Positions 3,367 through 61,893 of a DNA stretch of 64,000 nucleotides are shown here, piece after piece. Each line of letters begins with the position of its first letter. Positions within the stretch are counted from its first letter, which is position 1. Source of the stretch: Anaerolineae bacterium (GTDB taxonomy: Bacteria > Chloroflexota > Anaerolineae > Promineifilales > Promineifilaceae); the NCBI GenBank assembly GCA_023382655.1, contig JAHDWK010000004.1, positions 212,538 to 276,537 of the forward strand, given 5' to 3'. The position numbers and the translations under genes are program-made. The notes under the pieces are model-generated. The model ran no database searches and was not told where the DNA came from. It saw only the letters and a program-made list of their open reading frames with translations.

Positions 3367-3395
3367 AGTAGGGCGATTTTCAAAATCGCCCTACT
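3367..3395. terminator. Hairpin between convergent genes, likely bidirectional terminator
   Basis: A perfect 14-base inverted repeat, AGTAGGGCGATTTT and its complement, separated by one base. It ends in A/T stretches on both sides, so it could stop transcription of potD (+) and of the FHA gene (-), whose stop codon lies inside the right arm. The arm resembles the hairpin at 32325-32378 (GGCGATTTATCGCC), suggesting one repeat family. Confidence 0.75.
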
Positions 3396-8864: not shown

Positions 8865-10205
8865 TTGTTTGAAACATTAGGCGAACGCCTGCAAACTGTT
8901 TTTGATGGCCTGCAACGTCGCGGCAAACTAACCGAAGCGGACGTGGATAAGGCTATGCGTGAAGTACGCCTGGCTTTGTTGGAAGCGGACGTGAACTACA
9001 AAGTGGTCAAGAGCTTTGTGGAACGGGTACGCGAACGGGCAGTCGGGCAGGAAGTGATGCGCAGTCTCACACCAGGCCAGCAGGTGGTGAAGATTGTCCA
9101 TGAAGAGCTGATTACCACATTGGGTGAACCAGGGCGATTGAACCTGGGGATGCAATCCCCGGCGGTGATTATGCTGGTGGGTTTACAAGGCGCCGGTAAG
9201 ACGACCATGGCCGGTAAGCTGGCGTTGCATTTGCGCAAACAGGGGCGACGGCCGTTGCTGGTAGCCGCTGATGTGTACCGCCCCGCCGCGATTAACCAGT
9301 TGCAAACGCTGGGCCGCCAGCTAGACATTCCGGTTTATGATGAAGGCCCGCAGGGCAATCCCGTCAAGGTTTGTGTCAACGGTATCAACCGCGCCAAAAG
9401 TGATGGCCTGACCACCGTTATTTTAGACACGGCCGGCCGCCTGAACATTGACGAAATGATGATGGACGAAATCCGCACCATCAAAAAAGCGGTCAATCCG
9501 GTGGAAATTTTGCTGGTCGCCGATGCTATGACAGGTCAGGAAGCGGTGCGAGTGGCCACTGACTTTAACCAGGCTGTGGAAATTACCGGCCTGATCATGA
9601 CCAAAATAGATGGTGATGCACGGGGCGGGGCGGCCATTTCCATGCGGGAAGTAACCGGTGTGCCCATCAAGTTCCTGGGTACAGGCGAGAAGTTGACCGC
9701 CATTGAACCATTTTATCCTGACCGCCTGGCCAGCCGTATTTTGGGCATGGGGGATGTGCTGACGCTGATTGAAAAGGCGCAGACGGAAATGGATCAGGAA
9801 GAGGCGGCCATAGCGGGCGAACGGCTGATGAAGGGGGAGTTTAACCTGGATGATTTCATGAAACAGATGCAGCAGTTACGCAAATTAGGCCCGCTGACGC
9901 AACTGATGGAGATGATTCCGGGTATTAACAAAATGACGCAGGGTGTGGACATGAGTACGGCCGAACAGGATTTGAAGCGCATTGAAGCCATTATCCAGTC
10001 CATGACGCCGCAAGAACGCCGTGATCCTAAAATCCTGAAAGCAAGCCGCAAGCGGCGCGTGGCCACCGGGTCGGGCACGTCGGTACAAGAAGTGAACATG
10101 CTGTTGAAGCAGTTCCGGGATATGCAAGATATGATGAAACAAATGCGCAAAGGGCGCGGCCGGGGTTTGGCTAATTTGCTTGGTGGCCGGTTCCCTGGTA
10201 TGTAG
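8865..10205 (+). CDS. ffh: Signal recognition particle protein Ffh (SRP54 GTPase)
   Basis: GTPase of the signal recognition particle, which delivers ribosomes making membrane proteins to FtsY; 446 residues, normal length. The N domain is followed by the G domain with GLQGAGKTT, the DTAGR switch and TKIDGDARGGAA, and by the Met-rich M domain with GxxPG (MIPGINKM) and an MQDMMKQMRKG tail that binds SRP RNA and signal peptides. The start is a TTG codon: FETLGERLQ directly after it is the usual Ffh beginning and no better ATG exists. It is followed by rpsP, khpA and rimM, the standard order in many bacteria. A likely promoter lies at 8723-8751. Confidence 0.97.
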   Translation: MFETLGERLQTVFDGLQRRGKLTEADVDKAMREVRLALLEADVNYKVVKSFVERVRERAVGQEVMRSLTPGQQVVKIVHEELITTLGEPGRLNLGMQSPAVIMLVGLQGAGKTTMAGKLALHLRKQGRRPLLVAADVYRPAAINQLQTLGRQLDIPVYDEGPQGNPVKVCVNGINRAKSDGLTTVILDTAGRLNIDEMMMDEIRTIKKAVNPVEILLVADAMTGQEAVRVATDFNQAVEITGLIMTKIDGDARGGAAISMREVTGVPIKFLGTGEKLTAIEPFYPDRLASRILGMGDVLTLIEKAQTEMDQEEAAIAGERLMKGEFNLDDFMKQMQQLRKLGPLTQLMEMIPGINKMTQGVDMSTAEQDLKRIEAIIQSMTPQERRDPKILKASRKRRVATGSGTSVQEVNMLLKQFRDMQDMMKQMRKGRGRGLANLLGGRFPGM

Positions 10206-10211
10206 ACTGTG

Positions 10212-10276
10212 GAGATTAGAGATGAGAGAGTGGCGATGGTCACACCCTCTCATCTCCAATCTCAAGTTTTTTGGAT
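10212..10276 (+). terminator. Heptad-built hairpin with T tract after ffh
   Basis: The arms at 10212-10228 and 10247-10263 (GAGATTAGAGATGAGAG and its near complement) are built of 7-base words. They are followed by a run of T around 10267-10272, so this can act as an intrinsic terminator or attenuator between ffh and rpsP. It is one of the window-wide heptad arrays. Confidence 0.6.
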
Positions 10277-10312: not shown

Positions 10313-10912
10313 ATGCTCAAAATTCGTTTGACTCGAACTGGTAAGAAAAAGCAACCTAGCTATCGGGTGGTGGTGGCGAATAAAGATTCAAAGCGTGACG
10401 GCCGTATCGTGGAACGCATTGGTCATTACAATCCCCTTATGCAACCGGCGGAGTATCGTATTCAGGAAGACCGTGCCTTATATTGGCTGAGCGTGGGCGC
10501 CCAACCCACCGACGCCGTGCGCCGCTTGCTGGAAAAACAAGGCACCATTAGCCGTTTGCAGCGTTTCCATGCCGGTGAATCATTGGATTCGTTGGTGGCA
10601 GAGTATACGGGTGAGCCGGACACGGCCGTAGCGACTGCAGAAGCGGTCACGGCATTCACACCAGAGGTCGTTGCGGAAACGGCCGTTATGGAAACGGTTG
10701 CCGAAGAAGCGGTTGCTGAAGAAGCGGTTGCTGAAGAAGCGGTTGCTGAAGAAGCGGTTGCCGAAGAAGCGGTTGCCGAAGAAACCACCCTCGCCGAAAC
10801 AGTTGATGAAGAGGTGACTGAAGAAGAATTGGCCGATGAAGCAGTGGCCGAAGAAGAGCCAGTTGCAGCAGAAGTAGCCGACGATGAAGAGACTGAAGGC
10901 GAAAGCGAGTAA
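10313..10912 (+). CDS. rpsP: 30S ribosomal protein S16 with a long acidic repeat tail
   Basis: Small-subunit ribosomal protein. The first ~85 residues are an ordinary S16 (MLKIRLTRTGKKKQPSYRVV, the GHYNP motif, then the domain with VGAQPTDAVRRLL). The normal protein would end near residue 90, but here ~100 further residues follow, almost all Ala, Val and Glu, with at least five copies of AVAEE. The start ATG at 10313 follows a GGAG site at about 10295; an upstream in-frame TTG lies in the leader and is less likely. The tail is encoded by a 15-bp tandem repeat and should be strongly acidic and disordered, which is unusual for an RNA-binding protein. It is followed 6 bases later by khpA. Confidence 0.95.
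   Translation: MLKIRLTRTGKKKQPSYRVVVANKDSKRDGRIVERIGHYNPLMQPAEYRIQEDRALYWLSVGAQPTDAVRRLLEKQGTISRLQRFHAGESLDSLVAEYTGEPDTAVATAEAVTAFTPEVVAETAVMETVAEEAVAEEAVAEEAVAEEAVAEEAVAEETTLAETVDEEVTEEELADEAVAEEEPVAAEVADDEETEGESE
10694..10783 (+). repeat. 15-bp tandem repeat in rpsP
   Basis: About five to six tandem copies of GCGGTTGCTGAAGAA with C/T variation in one codon, encoding AVAEE. The full units start at 10709 and run to 10783, after a degenerate first copy. The copies are nearly identical, so the number of units may vary between strains. Confidence 0.9.
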
Positions 10913-12974: not shown

Positions 12975-14066
12975 ATGAAAATTGTCATCTTTGCCGGCGG
13001 CTCTGGCCGGCGGTTATGGCCCATCAGCCGCCAGAAATCACCTAAACAATTTGAGCAAATTATCGGCGATCAATCCACACTACAATTGGCCGTAGCGCGG
13101 GTACGCCATGTCTATGGTGCCGCCAACATCTTTATTTCCACTAACGAACAATACGTGGAGATTGTACGTGGGCAGCTCCCCGAAATTCCGCCGGATCAAA
13201 TCATTGGCGAACCAACCCGGCGTGACCTGGCGGCCGCCGTGGGGCTGGCGCTGGCCCATCTGTCTCACCATGCCACCAATGCCGACGAACCAGTTGCCAT
13301 TTTGTGGGGCGACAACTATATGGATCAGGTGGACAATTTCCGGACCGTTTTACAAACGGCGGAAACATTGCTGCTAAAAAAAGAGGCCAATATTTTTTTT
13401 ATCGGTGAGACGCCCCGTTTTGCCAATGAAAACCTGGGTTGGATTGGGTTGGGGCCGGAGAAAGGACGACTAGATGGGCAGCCGTATTATGGCTTCGAGT
13501 CGTTGACCTATCGGCCACCCCTGGCCGAATGCCGCCGTATGTTTGCCCAGGGCACACACGTCTGGAATACCGGTTACTTTGTGACAACTATTGGCTTTGT
13601 GCAGTCTCTCTACCGGCAGCAGCAGCCCCAGATGTGGAGGCAATTGACGCAGATTCAGGCAGCTATAGGCCAGGGCAATTATCAGGAGACGTTACACAAG
13701 ATTTATCCACAGCTTGATGTGATGAGTTTTGACGATGCCATTTTGCAGCACATTCCCGCGCACGAGGCATTGGTGCTGCACAGCGAAATGGGGTGGAGTG
13801 ATCCCGGTACATTGTATGCCCTAAAAGAAGCCATTAACCCAGACCCGGCAGCGAATGTGACGATAGGACTGGTAAAGGTGGCTGAGACCCAGGATTCTCT
13901 GGTTTATAACTATGAGCCGGACAAATTGGTGGCGGTTATTGGCCTTGAGGGGATGATTGTGGTAAATACGGGGGATGCCCTTTTGGTGGTACATAAAGAC
14001 AAGATTCCTTTGGTTAAGAAACTGGTTGATGGGCTGGATGGGACTGAATTGGAAAATTATAGTTAG
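12975..14066 (+). CDS. manC: Mannose-1-phosphate guanylyltransferase
   Basis: Makes GDP-mannose from mannose-1-phosphate and GTP for glycan synthesis; 363 residues, the short form without the fused isomerase domain. The nucleotidyltransferase signature FAGGSGRRLWPISR is at residues 6-19, followed by PKQF. The sugar-phosphate region contains LGWIGLG and HVWNTGYF, and MGWSDPGTLYAL lies near residue 275. The C-terminus carries the short beta-helix part (GLEGMIVVNTGDALLVVHKD). It begins 9 bases after dprA without a clear ribosome binding site, so coupling with dprA is possible. No other GDP-sugar genes are nearby. Confidence 0.93.
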   Translation: MKIVIFAGGSGRRLWPISRQKSPKQFEQIIGDQSTLQLAVARVRHVYGAANIFISTNEQYVEIVRGQLPEIPPDQIIGEPTRRDLAAAVGLALAHLSHHATNADEPVAILWGDNYMDQVDNFRTVLQTAETLLLKKEANIFFIGETPRFANENLGWIGLGPEKGRLDGQPYYGFESLTYRPPLAECRRMFAQGTHVWNTGYFVTTIGFVQSLYRQQQPQMWRQLTQIQAAIGQGNYQETLHKIYPQLDVMSFDDAILQHIPAHEALVLHSEMGWSDPGTLYALKEAINPDPAANVTIGLVKVAETQDSLVYNYEPDKLVAVIGLEGMIVVNTGDALLVVHKDKIPLVKKLVDGLDGTELENYS

Positions 14067-14072
14067 GGATTG

Positions 14073-14118
14073 GCGCTTAGAGATTGGAGATTGCTCTCAA
14101 TCTCTCATCTCTAGTCGC
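14073..14118. terminator. Heptad-built hairpin between manC and topA
   Basis: The arms at 14073-14093 and 14098-14118 pair over almost their full length and are built of 7-base words (TTAGAGA, TTGGAGA / CAATCTC, TCATCTC). A short T run follows at 14119-14122, just before the topA start. It could serve as terminator or attenuator. Confidence 0.6.
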
Positions 14119-14122
14119 TTTT

Positions 14123-16573
14123 ATGCTTATGGATGAAATTATAGGTTATTGTTTTAAGTGCAAAGAAAAACACCCGATGGTGAAACCGCAGGCGGAGTGG
14201 TCGGCGCATGGGGCGCCGGGAGTGCGCGGGACGTGTGCTAATTGCGGGGGCGGCATGTATAAGGCCATGCGGACGCCAGAACACGATGCTTTGCCCAAGC
14301 CGGAAAATATCAAACGCACACGCAAGACAGCGACGAGTAAAACAAAGAAGGGGGGGAAAAAGGGGGCGGCTAAGAAGGGCAGCGCAAAGGCGGCTAAAAA
14401 AACGGTGGGGCAAGGCACGGCCGTCTCCACTAAACCCGCTCCCCGCCGCAGTGGCAAACTGGTTGTCGTTGAATCCCCGGCCAAAGCCAAAACCATTGGC
14501 CGTTATCTGGGCAAGGGCTACACCGTTAAATCTAGTGTCGGCCATGTGCGGGATCTGTTGAAATCTCGGCTCAGTGTGGATGTGGATAATAATTTTGAGC
14601 CAGAATACCGCGTTTCCAACGACAAGCGTGATGTGGTGAAAGATCTGAAAGAAGCGGCAGCCCGCGCCACCGAAATCTACCTGGCGACTGACCCGGACCG
14701 TGAAGGGGAGGCGATTGCCTGGCATGTGCGCGAAGCGGCCGAAATGGACCCGGCGCGTACCCGACGGGTGGAATTCCACGAAATCACCAAACCGGCCATT
14801 CAAAAAGCGTTTGAGCATCCCCGTGATATTGATATGGATCGGGTGAATGCACAGCAAGCGCGGCGTATTTTGGACCGGCTGGTGGGGTACAAACTCAGTC
14901 CGCTGTTGTGGCGCAAGATTCACGGCCGTCTCTCGGCCGGGCGCGTGCAGTCGGTGGCGGTGCGGTTGGTAGTGGATCGTGAGCGGGAAATCCAACAGTT
15001 TGTCATCGAAGAATATTGGACGCTGGCGGCGGAATTGAGCCAACAGGAAATGGCGGGCAAACGGACACGGCCGTTTTTCATTGCCAAACTGTTCAAACTC
15101 AAAGGAGAAGACCCCGTTTTTCGTCAGCAGGCCGAGGTGCAACCCCATCTGGATACATTGGTAGATGCTGATTGGGTAGTAGGTGAAGTACGTCTGGGTA
15201 AACGCACACGCCGTCCAGCCGCTCCTTTTACCACCAGCACTTTGCAGCAGGAAGCGTCACGCCGCCTCAGTTATAACACTGACAAGACCATGCGCATTGC
15301 CCAGCAGTTGTACGAAGGCATTGACCTGAAAGACAATGAAGGCACGGTGGGGTTGATCACCTACATGCGTACCGATAGCGTGACCGTTTCGGCCGAAGCG
15401 CAGACAGAAGCGCGCACTTACATTAGCAAGCGATATGGCGCCGCTTATGTGCCGGTGAAACCACCGGAATACAAAACCAAAACAAAAGCAGCGCAGGAAG
15501 CGCACGAGGCTATCCGGCCAACTTCGGTGATGCATGTTCCTGCGGAAATAAAAGAGCATCTCAGCCGGGATCAATACCGGATGTATTCGCTCATTTGGGA
15601 TCGTTTTGTGGCCAGCCAGATGTCCCCGGCGCGGTATGATACGGTATCGGCCGATGTGTGGGCGGGGGACGAGAAAGTGGCAGCGGGAAAACGGCCGTAT
15701 CTCTTCCGGGCTACCGGCTCTACGCTGGAATTTCCCGGGTTTCTGGCGTTGTATGAAGAAAGCCGTCCTGAGGACCGCCCCGATGATGGCGAGAACCAGG
15801 TACCGGCGTCGCTGAAAACGCAGGAACAGTTGGATCTGCTCCGGCTGCTGCCAGAGCAACATTTTACACAACCACCTCCCCGGTTTAGTGAGGCGACACT
15901 GGTGAAGGCATTGGAGGAAAATGGCATTGGCCGCCCCAGTACCTATGCCAGCATTATCTCCACCATTCAGCAGCGCGGATATGTAGACCGCCAGGAGCGA
16001 CGGCTGACGCCCACAGAAACGGGCCAGGTTGTTAACGATCTGCTGGTGGAATACTTCCCGGATATTGTGTCGGTAGATTTTACGGCTCGCCTGGAAGATG
16101 AACTAGACAAGATTGCCGAAGGCGACCCCTGGACGCCGGTAGTGGGCAGTTTTTATGGGCAGTTTGTGGAAAAACTGGAAATTGCGGATGAATCCATCCC
16201 CAAAATTGATGTGCAGCGCGAACAGGAATTTGTGGGGCGTGACTGTCCCACCTGTGGCAGTCCGTTGGTGTATCGGGAAGGGCGGTACGGCCGTTTTATC
16301 GGTTGCAGCACTTTCCCTAAATGTCGCTACACGGAACAGCTTATTAAAGTGGTAGCTACCTGCCCACGCGGGGGACAGATTGTGGAGCGGCGCAGCAAAC
16401 GGGGCAAGGTTTTTTACGGTTGCAATCGTTACCCGGACTGTGAATGGCGCAGTTGGTATAAACCGGTGGCGGATACAAACGGTCATTGTGACGGGGTTCT
16501 GGTACAGCGCAGTGAGAGCAAAACAGAATGTGTGGCCTGTGCGTTGAAGGAAAACGTACCGGCCACAGCTTGA
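14123..16573 (+). CDS. topA: DNA topoisomerase I with N-terminal DUF5679 zinc ribbon
   Basis: Type IA topoisomerase that relaxes negative supercoils; about 816 residues. It begins with a DUF5679-like zinc ribbon (GYCFKCK...[13 protein letters not shown]), then a Lys/Ala-rich linker (~residues 65-110). The Toprim domain follows with [17 protein letters not shown] and [15 protein letters not shown]. The active-site Tyr is at about residue 414 in ITYMRTDS. The C-terminus has three zinc-ribbon modules; the second reads CPRGG and has lost one Cys. The ATG at 14123 (or 14129) is preferred to an upstream in-frame TTG at 14084, because that TTG lies inside the repeat hairpin. The N-terminal ribbon and basic linker probably add DNA contacts. 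Confidence 0.95.
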
Positions 16574-16605
16574 CAGGGTGACAAGGTGACGGGGTGACAA
16601 GGTGG
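16569..16605. repeat. Short tandem GGTGAC repeat
   Basis: Four near-copies of an eight-base unit (AGGGTGAC, AAGGTGAC, GGGGTGAC, AAGGTGG) between topA and the next gene. The GTG chosen as start of that gene lies inside the repeat, so the true start may be further downstream. Confidence 0.7.
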
Positions 16606-25152: not shown

Positions 25153-26627
25153 ACCGACGATCAACCCCTGGCGCGGGCCAATGGCTCACTGTCACCTTAC
25201 TTGTCGCCGCCAGTATCTTCCTGCTGGTTAAGCTCTTTCAGTATGCCACCGTTCGCAGCAACTATCCCACCGGTCTGGTGATTGCCGGAGTAGAAGTGGG
25301 AGGGCTGTCGAAGCAGCAAACCGGCGAAGTATTAACCAATCAATTCATTGAAGCACCCATTTTCATCTATTATGACGACGAACGTTTTGAAATCAGCCCC
25401 AGCCAGGCCAAATTCCAGTTAGACCTCACAACCATGCTCAACCAGGCTGACTATGAACGCGCCCAGCAAGATTTTTGGGCCGGCTTCTGGGGATTCTTGT
25501 GGGGTCGTCCGGTGGAAGTAAACCCCGTGCCCATTGCCGCCACCCATGACCGTGAAGCCTTGCGGGATGTTCTGTTGGATATTGCTACGCTGATGGACAA
25601 GCCTTCCCAACCGCCACAGCCGGTGCCCCAGAGCTTCAGCTTTCAATATGGCGAAGCCGGTACACGCACCGATATTGAAGCCAGTTTTGCTGACGTGGAA
25701 GCTGCTCTTTACCGACCTGCCAACCGCGAATCACGCCTGGTGGTGCGGCCTGGTCAGGCAACACCACCGGAGAAAAACCTGCTGGTGCGTTTGTTAGTCA
25801 ATAGCCTCCAGGATTTTGAGCAGTTGCATGGTGGCGTAGCCAGCATGTTCATTATGGATTTATCCACCGGCCGTGAGATTGCCATCAACGAAAAAACGCC
25901 TATGTCCGGCATGGATATGCTTAAGGTGCCCATTGTGCTGGAGATGTACCGGATATTGGATCAACCACCCACATTAACACAGCGGCAGCACATCTCCCAT
26001 ACGTTGGCGGCCACGCAAGACAACAACAGCGCCAATGAATTGCTCAAAATTATTAGCGGTCAGGATGATGCTTACCTGGGTGCACAGCAGGTGACGAACT
26101 CTATGCAGCAGCTAGGGTTGAAAAATACCTTTATCACGGCGCCTTATGATGAGGATCCCCGTCCGGGTTCGCCCCGCCCGGAAACTGAGGCCAACACAGC
26201 CGAAGATGTGCGTACCGTTCCTTCACCTTACATCCAAACAACGGCCGAAGACATGGGCACACTGCTTTCCATGATTTATTATTGTGCGGAAGGAGCGGGG
26301 GGGGTATTCACGGCCGTATACCGTGACGCTATCACCACCGACGAATGTAAAACCATCCTCGCTTTTATGACCCAAAATGACATCGGCAGTCTCATTCAAG
26401 AAGGTGTACCGGCCCAGATACCCATCGCCCATCGTCATGGCTGGATTGCCGATACACATGGCGATGCCGGTATTGTCTATTCACCTGGCGGTGACTATGT
26501 GATCGTGCAATTCTTGTATAAACCCAACTGGCTGGAATGGGAAGTGAGTTCACCATTGTTGGCTAACATGTCTCGCGCCACCTATAACTACTTTAACTTT
26601 GATGCTCCTTTTTTAGGAACTAATTGA
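25149..26627 (+). CDS. Serine beta-lactamase-like protein, catalytic Ser replaced (paralogue 1)
   Basis: Membrane-anchored protein of 492 residues. An N-terminal helix (~15-30) is followed by a VanW/PG-binding-4-like domain (~40-200, GVEVGGLSKQQTGEVL), then a class A beta-lactamase-like domain (~210-480). The helix that should carry SxxK reads SGMDMLK, so the aligned nucleophile is Asp256, with Lys259 kept. The second motif is NSAN and the KTG position reads RHGW. It is probably inactive or has another role in peptidoglycan sensing. A close paralogue with SILK follows at 26675. The ATG overlaps the NUDIX stop. Both paralogues share the HGDAGIV and PGGDYVIV region, so they are clearly homologous. 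Confidence 0.85.
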   Translation: MNRRSTPGAGQWLTVTLLVAASIFLLVKLFQYATVRSNYPTGLVIAGVEVGGLSKQQTGEVLTNQFIEAPIFIYYDDERFEISPSQAKFQLDLTTMLNQADYERAQQDFWAGFWGFLWGRPVEVNPVPIAATHDREALRDVLLDIATLMDKPSQPPQPVPQSFSFQYGEAGTRTDIEASFADVEAALYRPANRESRLVVRPGQATPPEKNLLVRLLVNSLQDFEQLHGGVASMFIMDLSTGREIAINEKTPMSGMDMLKVPIVLEMYRILDQPPTLTQRQHISHTLAATQDNNSANELLKIISGQDDAYLGAQQVTNSMQQLGLKNTFITAPYDEDPRPGSPRPETEANTAEDVRTVPSPYIQTTAEDMGTLLSMIYYCAEGAGGVFTAVYRDAITTDECKTILAFMTQNDIGSLIQEGVPAQIPIAHRHGWIADTHGDAGIVYSPGGDYVIVQFLYKPNWLEWEVSSPLLANMSRATYNYFNFDAPFLGTN

Positions 26628-26633
26628 GAGAGC

Positions 26634-26669
26634 AGAGATGAGAGATCGTCCAATCTCCCATCTCTTTTT
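26634..26669 (+). terminator. Heptad-type hairpin with T tract between the two paralogues
   Basis: AGAGATGAGAGAT (26634-26646) pairs with ATCTCCCATCTCT (26653-26665) with one mismatch, followed by TTTT. It looks like an intrinsic terminator; the repeat units are 7 bases long. Confidence 0.65.
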
Positions 26670-26674
26670 CACCT

Positions 26675-28243
26675 ATGCTCAAATCCATTCAAAAACTCCT
26701 TACCGGTATCCTGCTTATGCTGCTGCTGCTATTTTTAGGCTACCAGGCACTGCAATATTGGCTGGCGCAAGATCGGTTGCCGGCCGGATTAACCATTGCC
26801 GGTATAGATGTGGGCGGCCTGAACCAGGAAGAAGCCACTGCCCAGATACAACAAGTTTATAACGCGCCATTGGTTCTTCACCATCAATCCGAGCAGGTAG
26901 CCATCACGCCGGCCGAAGTTGGTTTTGCTCTGGACATGGAGCCGATGCTGGCTGAAGCAACAGCCTATCAATCGCAGTTAACCTTCTGGCAAGGGTATGT
27001 ACAATTTGTGTTGGGTCGCTCGTTAGAACCGGCCACTATCCCCTTGCAGGCCAGTTATGACCAGGCGGCGCTGCGCCAACAACTAGAGACAGTCGCCTCT
27101 TACCTGGACAAACCGGCCACATTGCCCCGACTGTTAGTGGCCGAGGGTGATTATGAACCCGGCCAACCGGGTTATGTCACCGATATTGAAGCCAGCCTGC
27201 CGCTGGCCGAGACGGCGCTTTTCCAGGCAAAACCAGAAGCGCGTCAGGTCAATCTGGTGTTACAAACCCAGGAGCCGGAGGAATTGAACATCCACGTGTT
27301 GGAAGAACAATTGCGGCGCGAATTAGAACGCGCCAGCAGCCGGGGACTGTTTGGTAGTATGTTTGTGATGGATTTGCAGACAGGTGAAGAGGTGAACATC
27401 AATGCGGATGTGGTAATGTCGGGTCTGAGCATCTTGAAGATCGCTATTTTTATTGCAGCTTATCGCGCTTTAGACCAGGCGCCCAATGAATATGAGCAGG
27501 GGTTGTTTTACAGCACGGCCGTGCAGTCCAGTAATTACAGCGCTAACCAACTGCTGCATATTGTTGCCGGCGAAAACAATACATATGAAGGTGCAGCCCA
27601 ACTTACCGAATTCGTGCAGCGGTTGGGGCTGGTTAATACTTTCATGGCGATACCTTATGATGCTGCCTTTGTGGACAGCCGTCCCCAAACTTACGTTACG
27701 CCCGCCAACTCTCAACCAAACATTCTTACCAACCCGGATATAGCCCGCCAGACGACCGCCGAAGATGTGGGAACATTGCTCTCCATGCTCTATTACTGTT
27801 CTAAGGGCGGCGGCGCCTTGTTAGCCATTTATCCCAACCAAATCACCCCGGCTGAGTGCCAGGCCATCATTGACGTGATGATCTTGAATACTGAGGGTAA
27901 TCTTATCCGCCTGGGAGTGCCTGAAAATGTGCCGGTTTCACACAAACACGGCTGGGGTGACAACCTGACTCATGGTGATGCTGGTATTGTGTTTACTCCG
28001 GGCGGCGATTATGTGATTGTCACTTATTTACACCAAAATGAAGGTTTTATTCTCTCAGATGTGAGTTTCCCCATATTGTGGGAGTTGTCGCGGCTGACCT
28101 ACAATTATTTTAACTATACTGACCCCTACCTGGATGACCCCATGATTCGGGCAGAGGCCGCCGCTCTGGAACGGGAGCAGGCTCTCGCTACAGCCACCGC
28201 TCAGGCGTTGGAGGCGGAAGCACCAGCGACGCCGGAACCGTAA
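26675..28243 (+). CDS. Serine beta-lactamase-like hydrolase with VanW-like N-domain (paralogue 2)
   Basis: Membrane-anchored protein of 522 residues with the same architecture as its neighbour: an N-terminal hydrophobic helix, a VanW/PG-binding-4-like domain (GLTIAGIDVGGLNQEEATAQI) and a class A beta-lactamase-like domain. Here SxxK is intact as Ser252-Ile-Leu-Lys255, NYSAN is the second motif and KHGW replaces KTG. A Glu/Ala/Thr-rich tail (~500-522) is additional. It is likely a D-Ala-D-Ala-type serine hydrolase or a peptidoglycan-binding protein; lactamase activity is not implied. Its stop codon is the first word of a heptad array (28241-28289). Confidence 0.88.
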   Translation: MLKSIQKLLTGILLMLLLLFLGYQALQYWLAQDRLPAGLTIAGIDVGGLNQEEATAQIQQVYNAPLVLHHQSEQVAITPAEVGFALDMEPMLAEATAYQSQLTFWQGYVQFVLGRSLEPATIPLQASYDQAALRQQLETVASYLDKPATLPRLLVAEGDYEPGQPGYVTDIEASLPLAETALFQAKPEARQVNLVLQTQEPEELNIHVLEEQLRRELERASSRGLFGSMFVMDLQTGEEVNINADVVMSGLSILKIAIFIAAYRALDQAPNEYEQGLFYSTAVQSSNYSANQLLHIVAGENNTYEGAAQLTEFVQRLGLVNTFMAIPYDAAFVDSRPQTYVTPANSQPNILTNPDIARQTTAEDVGTLLSMLYYCSKGGGALLAIYPNQITPAECQAIIDVMILNTEGNLIRLGVPENVPVSHKHGWGDNLTHGDAGIVFTPGGDYVIVTYLHQNEGFILSDVSFPILWELSRLTYNYFNYTDPYLDDPMIRAEAAALEREQALATATAQALEAEAPATPEP

Positions 28244-28289
28244 TCCGTGATCCGTCACCCGTTATCGGTGGTCGGATTAGGGATCACGA
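28241..28289. repeat. Heptad-repeat array overlapping a stop codon
   Basis: Seven consecutive 7-base words: TAATCCG, TGATCCG, TCACCCG, TTATCGG, TGGTCGG, ATTAGGG, ATCACGA. The left words (..CCG) and right words (CGG..) are partly complementary. The first word contains the TAA stop of the upstream gene. Confidence 0.8.
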
Positions 28290-46973: not shown

Positions 46974-46988
46974 CAGTAGCTCCTTTTT

Positions 46989-47039
46989 GTCATTGGTCAT
47001 TAGTCATTTGTTTATGACCAGTGACCAATAACCAATGAC
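46989..47039. repeat. Heptad hairpin between exosortase and its neighbour
   Basis: ATTGGTC, ATTAGTC, ATTTGTT on one side and TGACCAG, TGACCAA, TAACCAA on the other form complementary 7-base words. It lies in the short gap between the exosortase gene and the PEP-CTERM gene. Confidence 0.75.
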
Positions 47040-48568
47040 TATTTCAAATAATTATCTACCGCCTCATGCAGCGCCAGATACAATTGCCGCACCTCGTCAT
47101 CATGCGGCTGCACAGGGCCATCAAACAGAATAGAAACCAGCACCCAGGGTTCGCGCTCCAGGGAGGCATCGGCCCAGATGCGGGCGCCGTAATCATCGGT
47201 GGTGCGGGTGGCGGATTGGAACCAGTAGGCGGCGGTATAAAGTTGACGCTGCTCACCTTTACCCAGTGTCACCAGGCGCAGCGGGAACTCCGGCGACACC
47301 AGGTGTGGCTGGGAACTGTCCAGCGTCAGGCCATACACTTCAAAACATCTTTCCGGGCGGTGGTGTGCCCGCCATGTCTGGCTGGTGATCAGGATCATCG
47401 TGCCACTAACCTCACCCCATTGCCAGCGCAGCCGTTCGGCCGTAGCCGCGCCATCACGGGTGAGCCATTCGGTTTCGTCGGGTTTCAGTGGCAGCGGTTC
47501 TACCTGTAATACAGCAGGAAAGTGCCAGGCGGGGGCCACGGCCGTCAGCCCTGTTTGGGGCCGGGAAGTATAGAGTGGGATCATGACCAGGATGGCGGCA
47601 ATGAGAAAGATGGAGAAGTGGGTGGAAATCGGCGATTGGTCATTGGTGATTGGCTGGCTGACGATGGGTAAATCTCTATTCTCTACTCTCCGATCTCCTA
47701 CTCGCCACAGCAACACGGCCGTCGCGCACACCACCACAAATCCCAACACGCCCAACGGCACGTGCAGCATTTCTGCCAACAGCGTCCAGCCCATCACCTG
47801 GCCCACCAGCACCAGAATGGCTACGCGGGCAAAGTTAGCCACAAAAAGCAGGGGGATAAACAGCAGCAGCACCAGGAACCAGCGCCGGTTTAACGGCCGG
47901 GCCTCCACCCAGGTGGCTGCCAGCAAAAACAACATGCCCGTCCACAAACTCTTAACGCCGCTGCACGGCAGGTCAACCTGCGACACGCCATTTTCAAAGA
48001 CCAGGATGGTATCTACGCCGATGGAATGCACGCCGACGGCCGTTAATCCCTGCCGTACCAATTCCGCCGTTAAAATGCGCATGGGGTAGCCGACAAACGT
48101 TTGCAGATGCTCACCAAACGGCAGGACGCCAATCAGCAGCAGCATCGCCGGTAAACCTTGCCGCCAGCGCCCCGGTGATAACCACAGCCCCAACAAGCCA
48201 TAACTGGCAACACCAAAGAGACAGGCAGCCAGCATGTTTATGTCCAGGAAGCGCTCCACCAACAAATAGGCCACCGAGCCACCCAATGCCAGCGCCAGGG
48301 GCAGGCGACGCGGTACGGGGGCGGCATCGGGTTGGGGCCGGATACCTTCACGCTGCATTTGCAGCCCAATCAGCGCCAGCACCGCCACCAATACAATCTG
48401 GTTCAGGCGGAAATCTTCGCGCTGAAAAATAACTTGCAGATAGTTAAAAATGGGCAGATAGAGCCACAACCAGAGAAGCAGGATGAGCAGGTTCAAGCCC
48501 AGTTGCGGCCAGCGCCAGGTACGGGCCTGGACAGAGAGGGAGGACACCAGGTTTGTCATGGTATCCAT
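47039..48568 (-). CDS. Exosortase fused to an EpsI-like domain
   Basis: A 509-residue membrane protease/transpeptidase of the exosortase family. It has about eight to ten hydrophobic helices. The catalytic Cys is in DLPCSGVKSL, the conserved Arg in NFARV and the His in LHVPLG. The C-terminal ~200 residues resemble the EpsI domain (HRPERCFEVYGL). The linker (~residues 290-312) is encoded by a heptad-repeat array (47634-47705), read in frame. It is followed by the PEP-CTERM gene, which carries its likely substrate. I do not assign the exosortase subfamily. The ATG at 48568 has no clear ribosome binding site; ATG 48559 is also possible. Confidence 0.88.
   Translation of the reverse strand: MDTMTNLVSSLSVQARTWRWPQLGLNLLILLLWLWLYLPIFNYLQVIFQREDFRLNQIVLVAVLALIGLQMQREGIRPQPDAAPVPRRLPLALALGGSVAYLLVERFLDINMLAACLFGVASYGLLGLWLSPGRWRQGLPAMLLLIGVLPFGEHLQTFVGYPMRILTAELVRQGLTAVGVHSIGVDTILVFENGVSQVDLPCSGVKSLWTGMLFLLAATWVEARPLNRRWFLVLLLFIPLLFVANFARVAILVLVGQVMGWTLLAEMLHVPLGVLGFVVVCATAVLLWRVGDRRVENRDLPIVSQPITNDQSPISTHFSIFLIAAILVMIPLYTSRPQTGLTAVAPAWHFPAVLQVEPLPLKPDETEWLTRDGAATAERLRWQWGEVSGTMILITSQTWRAHHRPERCFEVYGLTLDSSQPHLVSPEFPLRLVTLGKGEQRQLYTAAYWFQSATRTTDDYGARIWADASLEREPWVLVSILFDGPVQPHDDEVRQLYLALHEAVDNYLK
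47634..47705. repeat. Heptad array inside the exosortase coding sequence
   Basis: Ten 7-base words in a row: GATTGGT, CATTGGT, GATTGGC, TGGCTGA, CGATGGG and, after two bases, AATCTCT, ATTCTCT, ACTCTCC, GATCTCC, TACTCGC. The words are the same kind as those in the gaps at 14073, 26634 and 46989. On the coding strand they encode a linker of 24 residues without breaking the frame. Confidence 0.85.
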
Positions 48569-48800: not shown

Positions 48801-50849
48801 CTACTCGGGCGTCTGGTCAATCGCCCGGTCAATCAACGATTGCGGCAGCTCGATGCCCTGGGCTTCGGCCCCGGCGCGGTTAATGAAGGTGTCAAAGACG
48901 CCAACCCGTTGAATATCGGTGGTGGCGATGTCCAGCGTACCATCCAGGAAAGCGACGGCCATTTCACCTGCCTGACGGCCGTCTTCCGCCAAAGATGCAC
49001 CCAAAGCCACTGCCCCACCCTTTGCCACCGTAGGAATATCGTTGGTGATGATGGGAATACCGTATTCATTAGCCACCTGCACCACCGCCTCCGAACCGGA
49101 AGCGACCGTGCTGTCTTGTGTGAAGTAGAAGAAATCTATGTCCAGGCCAGCTAACGATTCGGCGGCTGTGCGGATTTCGGAACTGTTGCTCACCGTAGCA
49201 ATTTCCAGCGTAATGCCGCGCTCATCGGCAATTGCCTGGACGGCTTCTGTCTGGGCTACTGAGTTCGCCTCGGCCGGATTGTAGAGGAAGCCAATCGTAG
49301 TCGTATCGGGATTGATTTCCAGCATTGTGTCGAAGGTTTCCTCCAGCGGCGGGAAGATTTGCGAGCCGGTCATCCAGGCCGGGTGATCATCCGGCGCGGT
49401 GGCGATGCCGGCCGCGTAGGGATCGGTAACGGTGGTGAAGATGATCGGAATTGGTTCGGCCATGTCCTGTGTGGCGTTCAGGGCGGCCTGAGCAGCCGGG
49501 GTACTGGTGGTGACAATGAGATCAACATTCTCATCAATGAACTGCTGGGCGATAGTGTTCAGGGTGGCAATATCCCCTTCAGCATTGCCACGAATGATGG
49601 TCAGATTTTCACCTTCCACATAGCCACCTTCGGCCATCGCCTCAATAAACGATTCCTGCACCAGTTCCAGGGCCGGGACAGAGGCAATAACCATCATGCC
49701 AATGGTGAATTCGCCTTTCTCTTCTTCTGTTGGTTCGGCACTACCTTCAAAGTCGGCCGGGGTTTGGTCAATGGCTCGCTCAATGAGGGATGCAGGCAGT
49801 TCGATGCCCTGCGCACTGGCCCCGGCGCGGTTGATGAAGTAGTCGAAGACGCCCACACGCTGGATGTCGGTGGTAGCCAGGTCAATCTCACCATTCAGGA
49901 AAGCAACGGCCATTTCACCGGCCACACGGCCGTCTTCCCGTAAAGAAGCACCGACAGCCGCCGTACCACCTTTGGCTACCGTGGGAATATCATTGGTGAT
50001 GATGGGAATGCCATTGTCATTCGCTACCTGGACGACAGCTTCGGAGCCAGAGGCCACGGTGCTATCCTGCGTGAAGTAGAAGAAATCTATGCCCAAACCA
50101 GCCAATGATTCGGCGGCCGTGCGGATTTCAGAACTGTTGCTTACTGTAGCAATTTCCAGTGTAATGCCACGCTCATCCGCAATTTGCTGGACGACCTCTG
50201 TCTGGGCAACAGAGTTGGCCTCGGCCGGATTGTAAAGGAAACCAATGGTGGTCAAATCGGGGTTGATTTCCAGCATTGTGTCAAAGGTTTCTTCCAATGG
50301 CGGGAACATTTGCGAGCCGGTCATCCAGGCCGGATGTTCGTCCGGGGCCGTGGCGATGCCGGCGGCATAGGGGTCGGTGACGGTAGTGAAGATGATGGGG
50401 ATGGGGTCGGCCATGTCTTGCGTGGCGTTCAAGGCGGCCTGGGCGGCCGGGGTGCTGGTAGTGACGATGAGATCAACCCCTTCGTCAATGAATTGTTGGG
50501 CAATGGTGTTCAGGGTGGCAATATCCCCTTCGGCATTGCCACGAATGATGGTCAGATTTTCTCCTTCAACATAGCCACCTTCAGCCAGGGTTGCGATGAA
50601 TGATTCCTGCACTGTTTCCAGAGCGGGGATAGGGGCGATGACCATCATGCCGATAGTGACATCTTCTGTGCCTGCTTCTGCTTCTTCCATCTCTGGCTCT
50701 TCAGTTGGTTCGGCGGGGGCGTCCGTGGGTTCTACGGCCGTTTCCGATTCTGTGTCCGGCGATTCGGTTGTTGACGGCGAACTACAGGCTGCCAGGAACC
50801 AGAGAAGCGCCATACCAATGAACAACAAACGGGGATATTTCTGCTTCAT
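48801..50849 (-). CDS. ABC transporter substrate-binding lipoprotein with two tandem binding domains
   Basis: A 682-residue surface lipoprotein. The signal peptide ends in a lipobox with Cys22 (FLAAC), followed by a Glu/Thr-rich tether. Two nearly identical domains of the ABC_sub_bind type (TrpX-like) start near residues 63 (DVTIGMMVIAP) and 380 (FTIGMMVIAS), with a repeat length of 317 residues. Shared segments include GGYVEGENLTIIRGNAEGD, VTTSTPAAQAAL and YNPAEANSVAQTE. The family normally has one domain of ~300 residues, so this is a two-headed protein. The matching ATPase and permease lie upstream on the same strand. AAGGAGAAGGAA before the ATG is a strong ribosome binding site. Confidence 0.9.
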   Translation of the reverse strand: MKQKYPRLLFIGMALLWFLAACSSPSTTESPDTESETAVEPTDAPAEPTEEPEMEEAEAGTEDVTIGMMVIAPIPALETVQESFIATLAEGGYVEGENLTIIRGNAEGDIATLNTIAQQFIDEGVDLIVTTSTPAAQAALNATQDMADPIPIIFTTVTDPYAAGIATAPDEHPAWMTGSQMFPPLEETFDTMLEINPDLTTIGFLYNPAEANSVAQTEVVQQIADERGITLEIATVSNSSEIRTAAESLAGLGIDFFYFTQDSTVASGSEAVVQVANDNGIPIITNDIPTVAKGGTAAVGASLREDGRVAGEMAVAFLNGEIDLATTDIQRVGVFDYFINRAGASAQGIELPASLIERAIDQTPADFEGSAEPTEEEKGEFTIGMMVIASVPALELVQESFIEAMAEGGYVEGENLTIIRGNAEGDIATLNTIAQQFIDENVDLIVTTSTPAAQAALNATQDMAEPIPIIFTTVTDPYAAGIATAPDDHPAWMTGSQIFPPLEETFDTMLEINPDTTTIGFLYNPAEANSVAQTEAVQAIADERGITLEIATVSNSSEIRTAAESLAGLDIDFFYFTQDSTVASGSEAVVQVANEYGIPIITNDIPTVAKGGAVALGASLAEDGRQAGEMAVAFLDGTLDIATTDIQRVGVFDTFINRAGAEAQGIELPQSLIDRAIDQTPE
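48804..50666. repeat. Internal duplication of the binding-protein gene
   Basis: The segments encoding the two domains are direct repeats offset by 951 bases, shown for example by TCATCCAGGCCGG at 49370 and again at 50321. Many third-codon positions differ, so the duplication is old enough to have diverged at the DNA level while the protein stayed close. Confidence 0.85.
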
Positions 50850-59550: not shown

Positions 59551-59636
59551 TCATCCAGCAGTGCCAGGCAAAGGCTGTACGACATTGGTCAATCAAAATG
59601 GTTCTGCCGCTTGCCTGGCACTGCCCGGTTGGATGA
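59551..59636. terminator. Long inverted repeat between permease and kinase
   Basis: GTGCCAGGCAA (59561-59571) pairs with TTGCCTGGCAC (59611-59621), and outer arms TCATCCA and TGGATGA (59551-59557, 59630-59636) extend the stem. It covers the gap and part of the open frame upstream of the kinase start, so translation from ATG 59669 rather than from earlier starts is more likely. Confidence 0.65.
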
Positions 59637-59668
59637 CGAAAAATCAAACCTACGTTACCCTATCCCCC

Positions 59669-61153: not shown

Positions 61154-61171
61154 CCAGAAATCTCACGCATC
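61144..61171. repeat. Inverted repeat overlapping the kinase stop codon
   Basis: TGATGCGTGA (61144-61153) and TCACGCATCA (61162-61171) are complementary; the kinase stop TGA is in the left arm. The right side continues with seven-base words (TCACGCA, TCATGCA). Confidence 0.65.
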
Positions 61172-61192
61172 ACGCATCATGCAGGAAAAACG

Positions 61193-61849
61193 ATGATCAC
61201 AGTGATGTTAGTGGACGATCATAAAGTCGTGCGCCAGGGAGTGCGTGCTTTTTTGCAGACGCAGCCGGATATGGAGATTGTGGCCGAGGCAGAAAATGGG
61301 CAAACGGCCGTGACGCTGGCCGCCGAATATGCGCCCGATGTGGTGCTGATGGATTTGATCATGCCCGGTGGTTTGGATGGCGTGGCCGCCACGCGGCAGA
61401 TCAAGCAGGCCAGCCCGCGCACCCAGGTCATCGTCCTCACCTCCTATCACCAAGACGAACACATTTTCCCGGCCATTCGCGCCGGGGCGCTTTCGTATAT
61501 TTTGAAAGATGTCGAGCCGGGGGACTTGGCAACGGCCGTACGCCAGGCCGCGCAGGGGGAAGCCGTGCTGCATCCCCGTGTGGCCGCACGGGTGGTGCAG
61601 GAACTTGCCGGGCAGCGGTCAGATACACTCAATCCCTTCACCGAGTTGAGTGAACGAGAACTGGAAGTGCTGAAACTCATCGCCGCCGGTCTGAGCAACA
61701 GCGACATTGCCGCAAAACTGGTGATCAGCGAAAAAACGGTGAAAAGCCACGTCAGCAACATCCTGAGCAAATTGCACCTGGCCGACCGGACGCAGGCGGC
61801 GGTGTATGCCTGGCGCGAAGGCATCATGCGCCGTGATGAAAAAGGATGA
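61193..61849 (+). CDS. NarL/LuxR-type response regulator
   Basis: A 218-residue regulator with an intact receiver: Asp8-Asp9 pair (VDDHK), phospho-acceptor Asp in VVLMDLIMP near residue 55, Thr (VLTSY) and Lys (YILKD). The C-terminal LuxR domain (LSERELEVLKLIAAGLSNSDIA...VKSHVSNILSKLHL) is complete. It follows its kinase by 39 bases and should activate the ABC exporter operon. A contrast is the degenerate receiver at 43136-43813. Confidence 0.95.
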   Translation: MITVMLVDDHKVVRQGVRAFLQTQPDMEIVAEAENGQTAVTLAAEYAPDVVLMDLIMPGGLDGVAATRQIKQASPRTQVIVLTSYHQDEHIFPAIRAGALSYILKDVEPGDLATAVRQAAQGEAVLHPRVAARVVQELAGQRSDTLNPFTELSERELEVLKLIAAGLSNSDIAAKLVISEKTVKSHVSNILSKLHLADRTQAAVYAWREGIMRRDEKG

Positions 61850-61893
61850 GGCGTGATACGTGATGCGTGACCAGAATGGTTTCACGTATCGCT
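61850..61893. repeat. Heptad-type repeat before the recombinase gene
   Basis: Words GCGTGAT, ACGTGAT, GCGTGAC are followed by a complementary TTCACGTATCGC. The array lies in the gap between the response regulator and the recombinase gene. Confidence 0.6.

Follow-up and report, generated by a model that had tools for sequence, protein, structure and literature searches.

An in-frame heptad tract in the interdomain linker of a Chloroflexota exosortase O, a probable member of a genome-wide class of short tandem-word arrays

In a 64,000-nucleotide stretch of an Anaerolineae genome (hereafter the window), the linker between the two domains of exosortase O (XrtO) is encoded by a degenerate tract of 7-bp words. 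The array itself is confirmed, and we consider it probable (about 0.78) that it is an in-frame member of a genome-wide class of heptad arrays and works by the mechanism proposed below. Comparison of sister sequences makes the expandability of these arrays a well-supported reading, and their dispersal between loci, from a small shared dictionary of words, is suggested.

The heptad tract of xrtO

The host gene is a full-length XrtO member in which only the linker sequence is special: TIGR04489 scores 385.9 bits against a cut-off of 250 and is matched over model positions 1–450 of 451. An N-terminal exosortase domain with eight transmembrane segments (PF09721, residues 31–289) is fused to a C-terminal EpsI-like domain. 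The features of the gene are as follows.

47039–48568, minus strand: xrtO, exosortase O gene, 509 aa (open reading frame, TIGR04489 and PF09721)
47631–47705, minus strand: in-frame degenerate heptad array in the interdomain linker, residues ~288–312 (VGDRRVENRDLPIVSQPITNDQSP), lag-7 score 11/14
47671–47709, minus strand: sub-array 1, coding strand GAGTAGG/AGATCGG/AGAGTAG/AGAATAG/AGATT, of the GAGATT/AATCTC type
47630–47655, minus strand: sub-array 2, coding strand GCCAATC/ACCAATG/ACCAATC/GCCGATT, of the GTCATTGG type

Ten 7-base words of two kinds had been noticed at 47634–47705 in a sequence-only reading of this DNA, and the sequence bears this out with about nine or ten imperfect words: the coding strand carries the words of sub-array 1, then 15 non-repeat bases, then the words of sub-array 2. 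The words also recur in gaps as that reading had claimed, those of sub-array 1 at 14073 and 26626 and those of sub-array 2 at 46985, and TCATTGGTCATT occurs 51 times in the genome versus 0 for its reversed control. The length of 72 bases, a multiple of three, had been remarked on as well; since the ends of the array are fuzzy, 72 = 24 × 3 carries no weight, and we reject it as evidence.

Tandem Repeats Finder detects only 47635–47653 in the tract, while a lag-7 scan extends over 47631–47691 at 11/14, a score that is matched by no other scan window in the gene and that stands out from codon-shuffled versions of the linker at p = 0.002–0.004. Across the 64 kb, 10 sites score like the xrtO array at lag 7 versus 2–5 at other lags. 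Support from this score on its own is modest, and the case for the array rests on the shared words, the genome-wide context and the homologues. In the AlphaFold2 model, pLDDT falls below 50 at residues 294–311, between helices at 262–289 and 316–332, in agreement with the earlier description of a hydrophilic linker between the exosortase domain and the EpsI-like part. The words had been said to "replace" coding sequence, which is apt, as there is almost no net gain in length (456 residues versus 450 XrtO model positions). We propose that the tract encodes a spacer that is disordered and for which no function is apparent.

A hairpin in the linker DNA was considered and rejected, folding having given no significant structure (z −0.34). 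Recent copying of the linker from another locus was also rejected: no near-identical copy of the tract was found elsewhere in the genome, and matches were confined to short words (best E 0.03). Rfam gave no match to the window. Beside xrtO, positions 48801–50849 encode a protein whose two halves are near-identical, lie in tandem and are similar to an ABC substrate-binding protein.

The same linker in XrtO homologues

The earlier reading had asked whether homologues lack the linker. The alignment gives a hydrophilic linker at this interdomain site in all 25 homologues examined, similar in length with and without arrays, and the xrtO array thus did not lengthen the protein but occupies, or overwrote, an old linker. 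The earlier proposal that the array "was inserted or grew" inside the gene therefore holds in part: in-frame arrays in tolerant linkers do gain and lose units, but XrtO offers no clear insertion.

Four homologues (L037, L042, L048 and L067) have unrelated 7-bp arrays at this same linker (p ~0.0005–0.0015, codon shuffle). The three closest sisters (L031, L032 and L034) have 8-bp arrays of the GAGATT/CATCTCC type (p at most 0.0025), sharing the word type of sub-array 1 at an 8-bp period, and L033, sister to their clade, has a linker without an array. Judged from these sequences, the array in the XrtO linker has changed unit length within the genus. At least four changes in array presence are required on the XrtO tree, or five if unit length is counted, the trees used here being quick ones and the genome samples partial. 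Linkers of array-free lineages lack comparable lag-7 scores and are unrelated in sequence; the same linker protein without 7-bp periodicity, which the earlier reading had named as evidence that would count against it, was looked for in other genera and none was found. The contig of L048 (JAAUTF010000092.1) is labelled Candidatus Gracilibacteria, yet its XrtO is ~50% identical to those of Chloroflexota and has AATTCAG heptads in the linker; the contig is probably misbinned.

Arrays elsewhere in the window

The following arrays, the first three of them intergenic and none assigned to a strand, could be followed into sister species (G001 to G005).

46985–47039: heptad hairpin in the gap between xrtO and the next gene, GTCATTG words, loop CATAAACAAATG, z = −5.9 as single strand
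14062–14115: GAGATTG/CAATCTC heptad hairpin, found at this position in five sister species, the number of units differing among them
26620–26668: GAGATGA/CAATCTC heptad hairpin, site shared by G001, G002 and G003, not by G004 and G005
28230–28275: GTAATCG/GTGATCC heptad array, with longer GTAATCGG arrays at this site in G001 and G003 and none in G005
10205–10235: GAGATTA heptad array, with a hairpin array in G004 and another short hairpin instead in G001, G002 and G003

At the site next to xrtO, three species have hairpins built from different words (GTCATTG, GTCACCC and GTCACTC; orthologues in G003 and G002), the loop is reversed in G002, and no hairpin is present in G004 or G005. The 14062–14115 hairpin is one heptad shorter in each arm in G003 than in G001 (−7/−7), and it is kept because one unit is gone from both arms.

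Four sister species retain, in altered form, an octad array at 16571–16604 (TGACAAGG/TGACAGGG); such 8-bp arrays make up a second class of the repeats. Inverted TCACGCA arrays at 61161–61186 and 61847–61872, separated by ~660 bp, stand on either side of a gene for a NarL-type response regulator, and the downstream site is free of arrays in the aligned loci of G002 and G003. Positions 3368–3394 hold a GTAG-type REP-like palindrome (GTAGGGCGATTTTCAAAATCGCCCTAC), and in sister species similar GTAG...CTAC hairpins stand in place of heptad arrays at the orthologous positions. The ~75-bp imperfect palindrome at 59557–59640 (CAGTGCCAGGCAA...TTGCCTGGCACTG) has dozens of similar copies in sister genomes (query 15553–15636) and is unrelated to the heptads, being a dispersed element of MITE/REP-like kind. 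A coding stretch at 10691–10857 contains 15-bp tandem repeats, ~6 copies of GAAGCGGTTGCCGAA and then GAAGAAGTGGCCGAA.

Genome-wide abundance and placement

In 0.8 Mb of the host genome, 143 arrays were found at lag 7 versus 1–5 at control lags 4, 5, 10, 11 and 13, and lag 8 was also raised, with 72; by extrapolation, the genome holds more than 1000 tandem-word arrays of 7 and 8 bp. Although 85–90% of the sampled DNA is coding, most arrays are intergenic: in the 0.8 Mb plus the window, 102 lie between genes, 29 (~20%) inside genes and 15 across gene ends, with genes called by a home-made simple codon model on which some of the in-gene arrays depend. The 195 array arms fall into 56 word classes, the top eight of which account for 60%; random intergenic 7-mers, by comparison, gave ~175 classes and 9%. 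Dominant classes include AATCGGT, AATCCGT, ACTGCTC and ACGCATC. Arrays are typical of most genera of the host family and absent from most other families tested in 40-kb samples, and their words vary by genus; one congener, G005, has no arrays in its sample. The commonest word occurs as a triplet in 15 of 396 genomes of the host class, most densely in the host family.

Hairpins are formed by 35% of intergenic arrays, 11% of controls and 7% of in-gene arrays, and arrays are not enriched between convergent genes. Because 7 (and likewise 8) is coprime to 3, a word without TAA, TAG or TGA is open in all three frames, while one containing a stop is closed in every frame given at least three exact units in a row. 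Among arms open on one strand only, 21 in-gene arms are open on the coding strand versus 4 on the other; intergenic arms (30 versus 38) have no bias relative to the reference strand. Few hairpins are thus expected inside genes, where the reverse word would be closed.

A search for a driver gene gave no candidate that separates array-rich from array-poor genomes among PF01797, MutS and SbcD. The Y1/REP transposase PF01797 was rejected as driver, being present in 16 of 19 genomes, rich and poor alike. Loss of MutS or SbcD was rejected as cause: both are in nearly all genomes of either kind, and a repair defect therefore does not explain the arrays.

Arrays in aroE, uvrA and other genes

Hosts of in-gene arrays include the genes for shikimate dehydrogenase (AroE), UvrA, the glutamate synthase small subunit and RecG. 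An inter-strand loop of AroE measures 9–10 residues in many relatives without arrays, and up to 23 in others, compared with 15–44 (mostly 18–44) where heptads are present. The words there are ATTACCG/TCACGCA in the host genus, AATCTCC in the next, and GACTGGA, CATTCGT or GAAGATT elsewhere. In the structural model, pLDDT is below 50 at residues 103–134, the array loop, and mostly above 90 in the remainder. AroE is a case of true insertion, filled with different words in different genera, and UvrA repeats the pattern: at ~95% overall identity to its nearest sisters, its array loop spans 83–105 residues between fixed motifs in the host genus versus ~46 in array-free relatives. Arrays lie in frame in disordered loops, and the same loops have been independently re-occupied with different words and unit lengths.

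Single-unit changes between sisters are seen in aroE, in both arms of the intergenic hairpin described above and in uvrA, all from between-species comparison with one genome per species. One heptad has been lost and one base added between aroE of G000 and G001 (−7/+1), and the reading frame is kept because the one offsets the other. The uvrA of G003 (L151, C537) shifts frame inside its heptad/octad array, apparently one unit short of G001, which may reflect either a true contraction or a collapse in assembly. These changes agree with the earlier suggestion that the arrays are expandable. Arrays are also present at sites, including sites in genes, where relatives have none.

Proposed mechanism and alternatives

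We propose that arrays arise in, or are copied into, mainly intergenic gaps, often as word/reverse-word hairpins. Whole units would be gained and lost through replication slippage, as the indel patterns suggest, and words would be homogenised by template switching within hairpins, to which the paired-arm and loop-reversal changes point, and probably also by exchange between arrays, given the shared dictionary. Arrays landing in genes would persist, presumably as neutral passengers, only where an unstructured linker or loop tolerates them and the coding-strand word is free of stops. In xrtO the tract would have taken over a pre-existing linker, and in aroE and uvrA short loops would have been enlarged. 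Two points count against this scheme: the array in xrtO is degenerate, and no significant hairpin is formed by its DNA. A bolder version, in which a lineage-specific activity writes, copies and rewrites 7- and 8-bp words from a small genus-specific dictionary at more than 1000 sites, in-frame loops of core enzymes included, is rather unlikely; if true, such an activity would differ both from a transposon and from a classical SSR process, which is confined to a single locus at a time.

The matched removal of a unit from each arm, which preserves a hairpin, the frequent folding of intergenic arrays and the presence of other hairpins at the same sites in sisters would all suit functional RNA hairpins (terminators or mRNA stabilisers), with genic arrays as leftovers of fused or extended genes. 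This account is possible but doubtful, as the aroE and uvrA arrays sit in mid-gene loops and not at gene fusions, and convergent-gene gaps are not enriched. The arrays had also been called "mobile", a claim that we do not uphold, and a mobile REP/RPE-like family that a transposase inserts between genes and, keeping the frame, inside them is unlikely. Such a family could account for the small shared dictionary, for arrays that are present in one species and missing from the orthologous site in another, where a GTAG-type REP hairpin sometimes stands instead, and for an intragenic location already known for REPs in uvrA (PMC3733652). However, the arrays have no fixed ends, no target-site duplication was seen, the xrtO tract is without near-identical copies, PF01797 fails to discriminate between rich and poor genomes, and unit changes within arrays and switches from 7 to 8 bp are untypical of transposition.

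It is very unlikely that the arrays serve to tune the host proteins as switches of phase or length variation. Gain or loss of a 7- or 8-bp unit does shift the frame, as in the one frameshifted uvrA, but that case is explicable by assembly collapse, in-gene arrays are nearly all in frame with changes compensated as in aroE, and the hosts are unrelated housekeeping genes. It is more improbable still that XrtO has a protein linker of the ordinary kind, evolving fast and low in complexity, with a 7-bp period by chance. All homologues do have a variable hydrophilic linker and the window's array is weak when taken alone, but codon selection cannot make a 7-bp DNA period, the shuffling tests disfavour chance both in the window and in the four homologues with unrelated heptads, array-free lineages show no similar lag-7 scores, the sisters have 8-bp arrays, and the words match the genome dictionary. 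We thus retain the reading of the xrtO tract as an in-frame member of the genome-wide class.

Relation to known repeats and significance

In several bacteria, heptamers have been recognised as the most frequent of the long simple repeats. The closest relatives of the arrays described here are the cyanobacterial heptamer repeats, the heptads of the Nostoc trnL intron and the intragenic REP/RPE elements.

Heptameric repeats (STRR) with the words GGGGATT in Nostoc, where about one-third are intragenic, and GGGAATC in Xanthomonas are likewise dispersed 7-bp tandem units, mostly intergenic, with a lineage-typical word and lengths that vary between close relatives (PMC4692102), and the Chloroflexota arrays share a 7-bp period far above other periods. 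They differ in having many coexisting words, word/anti-word hairpins and 8-bp arrays, and in re-occupying the same protein loop with different words across genera; none of GGGGATT, GGGAATC or TAACTGA is the dominant unit in the host genome. The last of these is the Beggiatoaceae heptamer, a single word in dispersed direct repeats shared unevenly among lineages (PMC4679880), typically just upstream of start codons; its descriptions mention neither hairpin arms nor the occupation of loops within genes. In the P6b stem of the Nostoc trnL(UAA) group I intron, a heptad hairpin of class NNTGAGT has repeatedly been replaced by TDNGATT, with paired-arm indels (PMC4476775). A hairpin at a tolerant site, word-class replacement and indels in both arms are common to both systems, although P6b is a structural RNA site and the Chloroflexota arrays occupy linkers of protein-coding genes as well as numerous gaps between genes.

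Rickettsia palindromic elements and intragenic GTAG/CGTC REPs form short in-frame insertions in unrelated genes, uvrA included (PMC10969869, PMC3733652), and the Chloroflexota arrays similarly lie in frame in unrelated genes (aroE, uvrA and others) at sites compatible with function. Those elements have defined palindromic units and ends, whereas the heptad tracts vary by unit number and word, and neither a palindromic unit with conserved ends nor a RAYT/Y1 transposase that discriminates carriers was found for them. In the literature searched, we found no description of such repeats in Chloroflexota, nor of the present combination, in which one and the same protein loop is occupied again and again by arrays that differ in word and unit length.

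The Chloroflexota arrays offer a comparative system in which close relatives differ in the words and unit lengths found at orthologous sites, in genes of known structure; because these sites are differently occupied, gain, word replacement and unit change can be counted directly. Throughout this Chloroflexota group, these repeats fill gaps and also occupy loops of essential genes, aroE and uvrA among them, changing in length and wording while the gene usually remains unbroken, and they show a route from non-coding repeats to protein sequence in core enzymes (AroE, UvrA and an exosortase).
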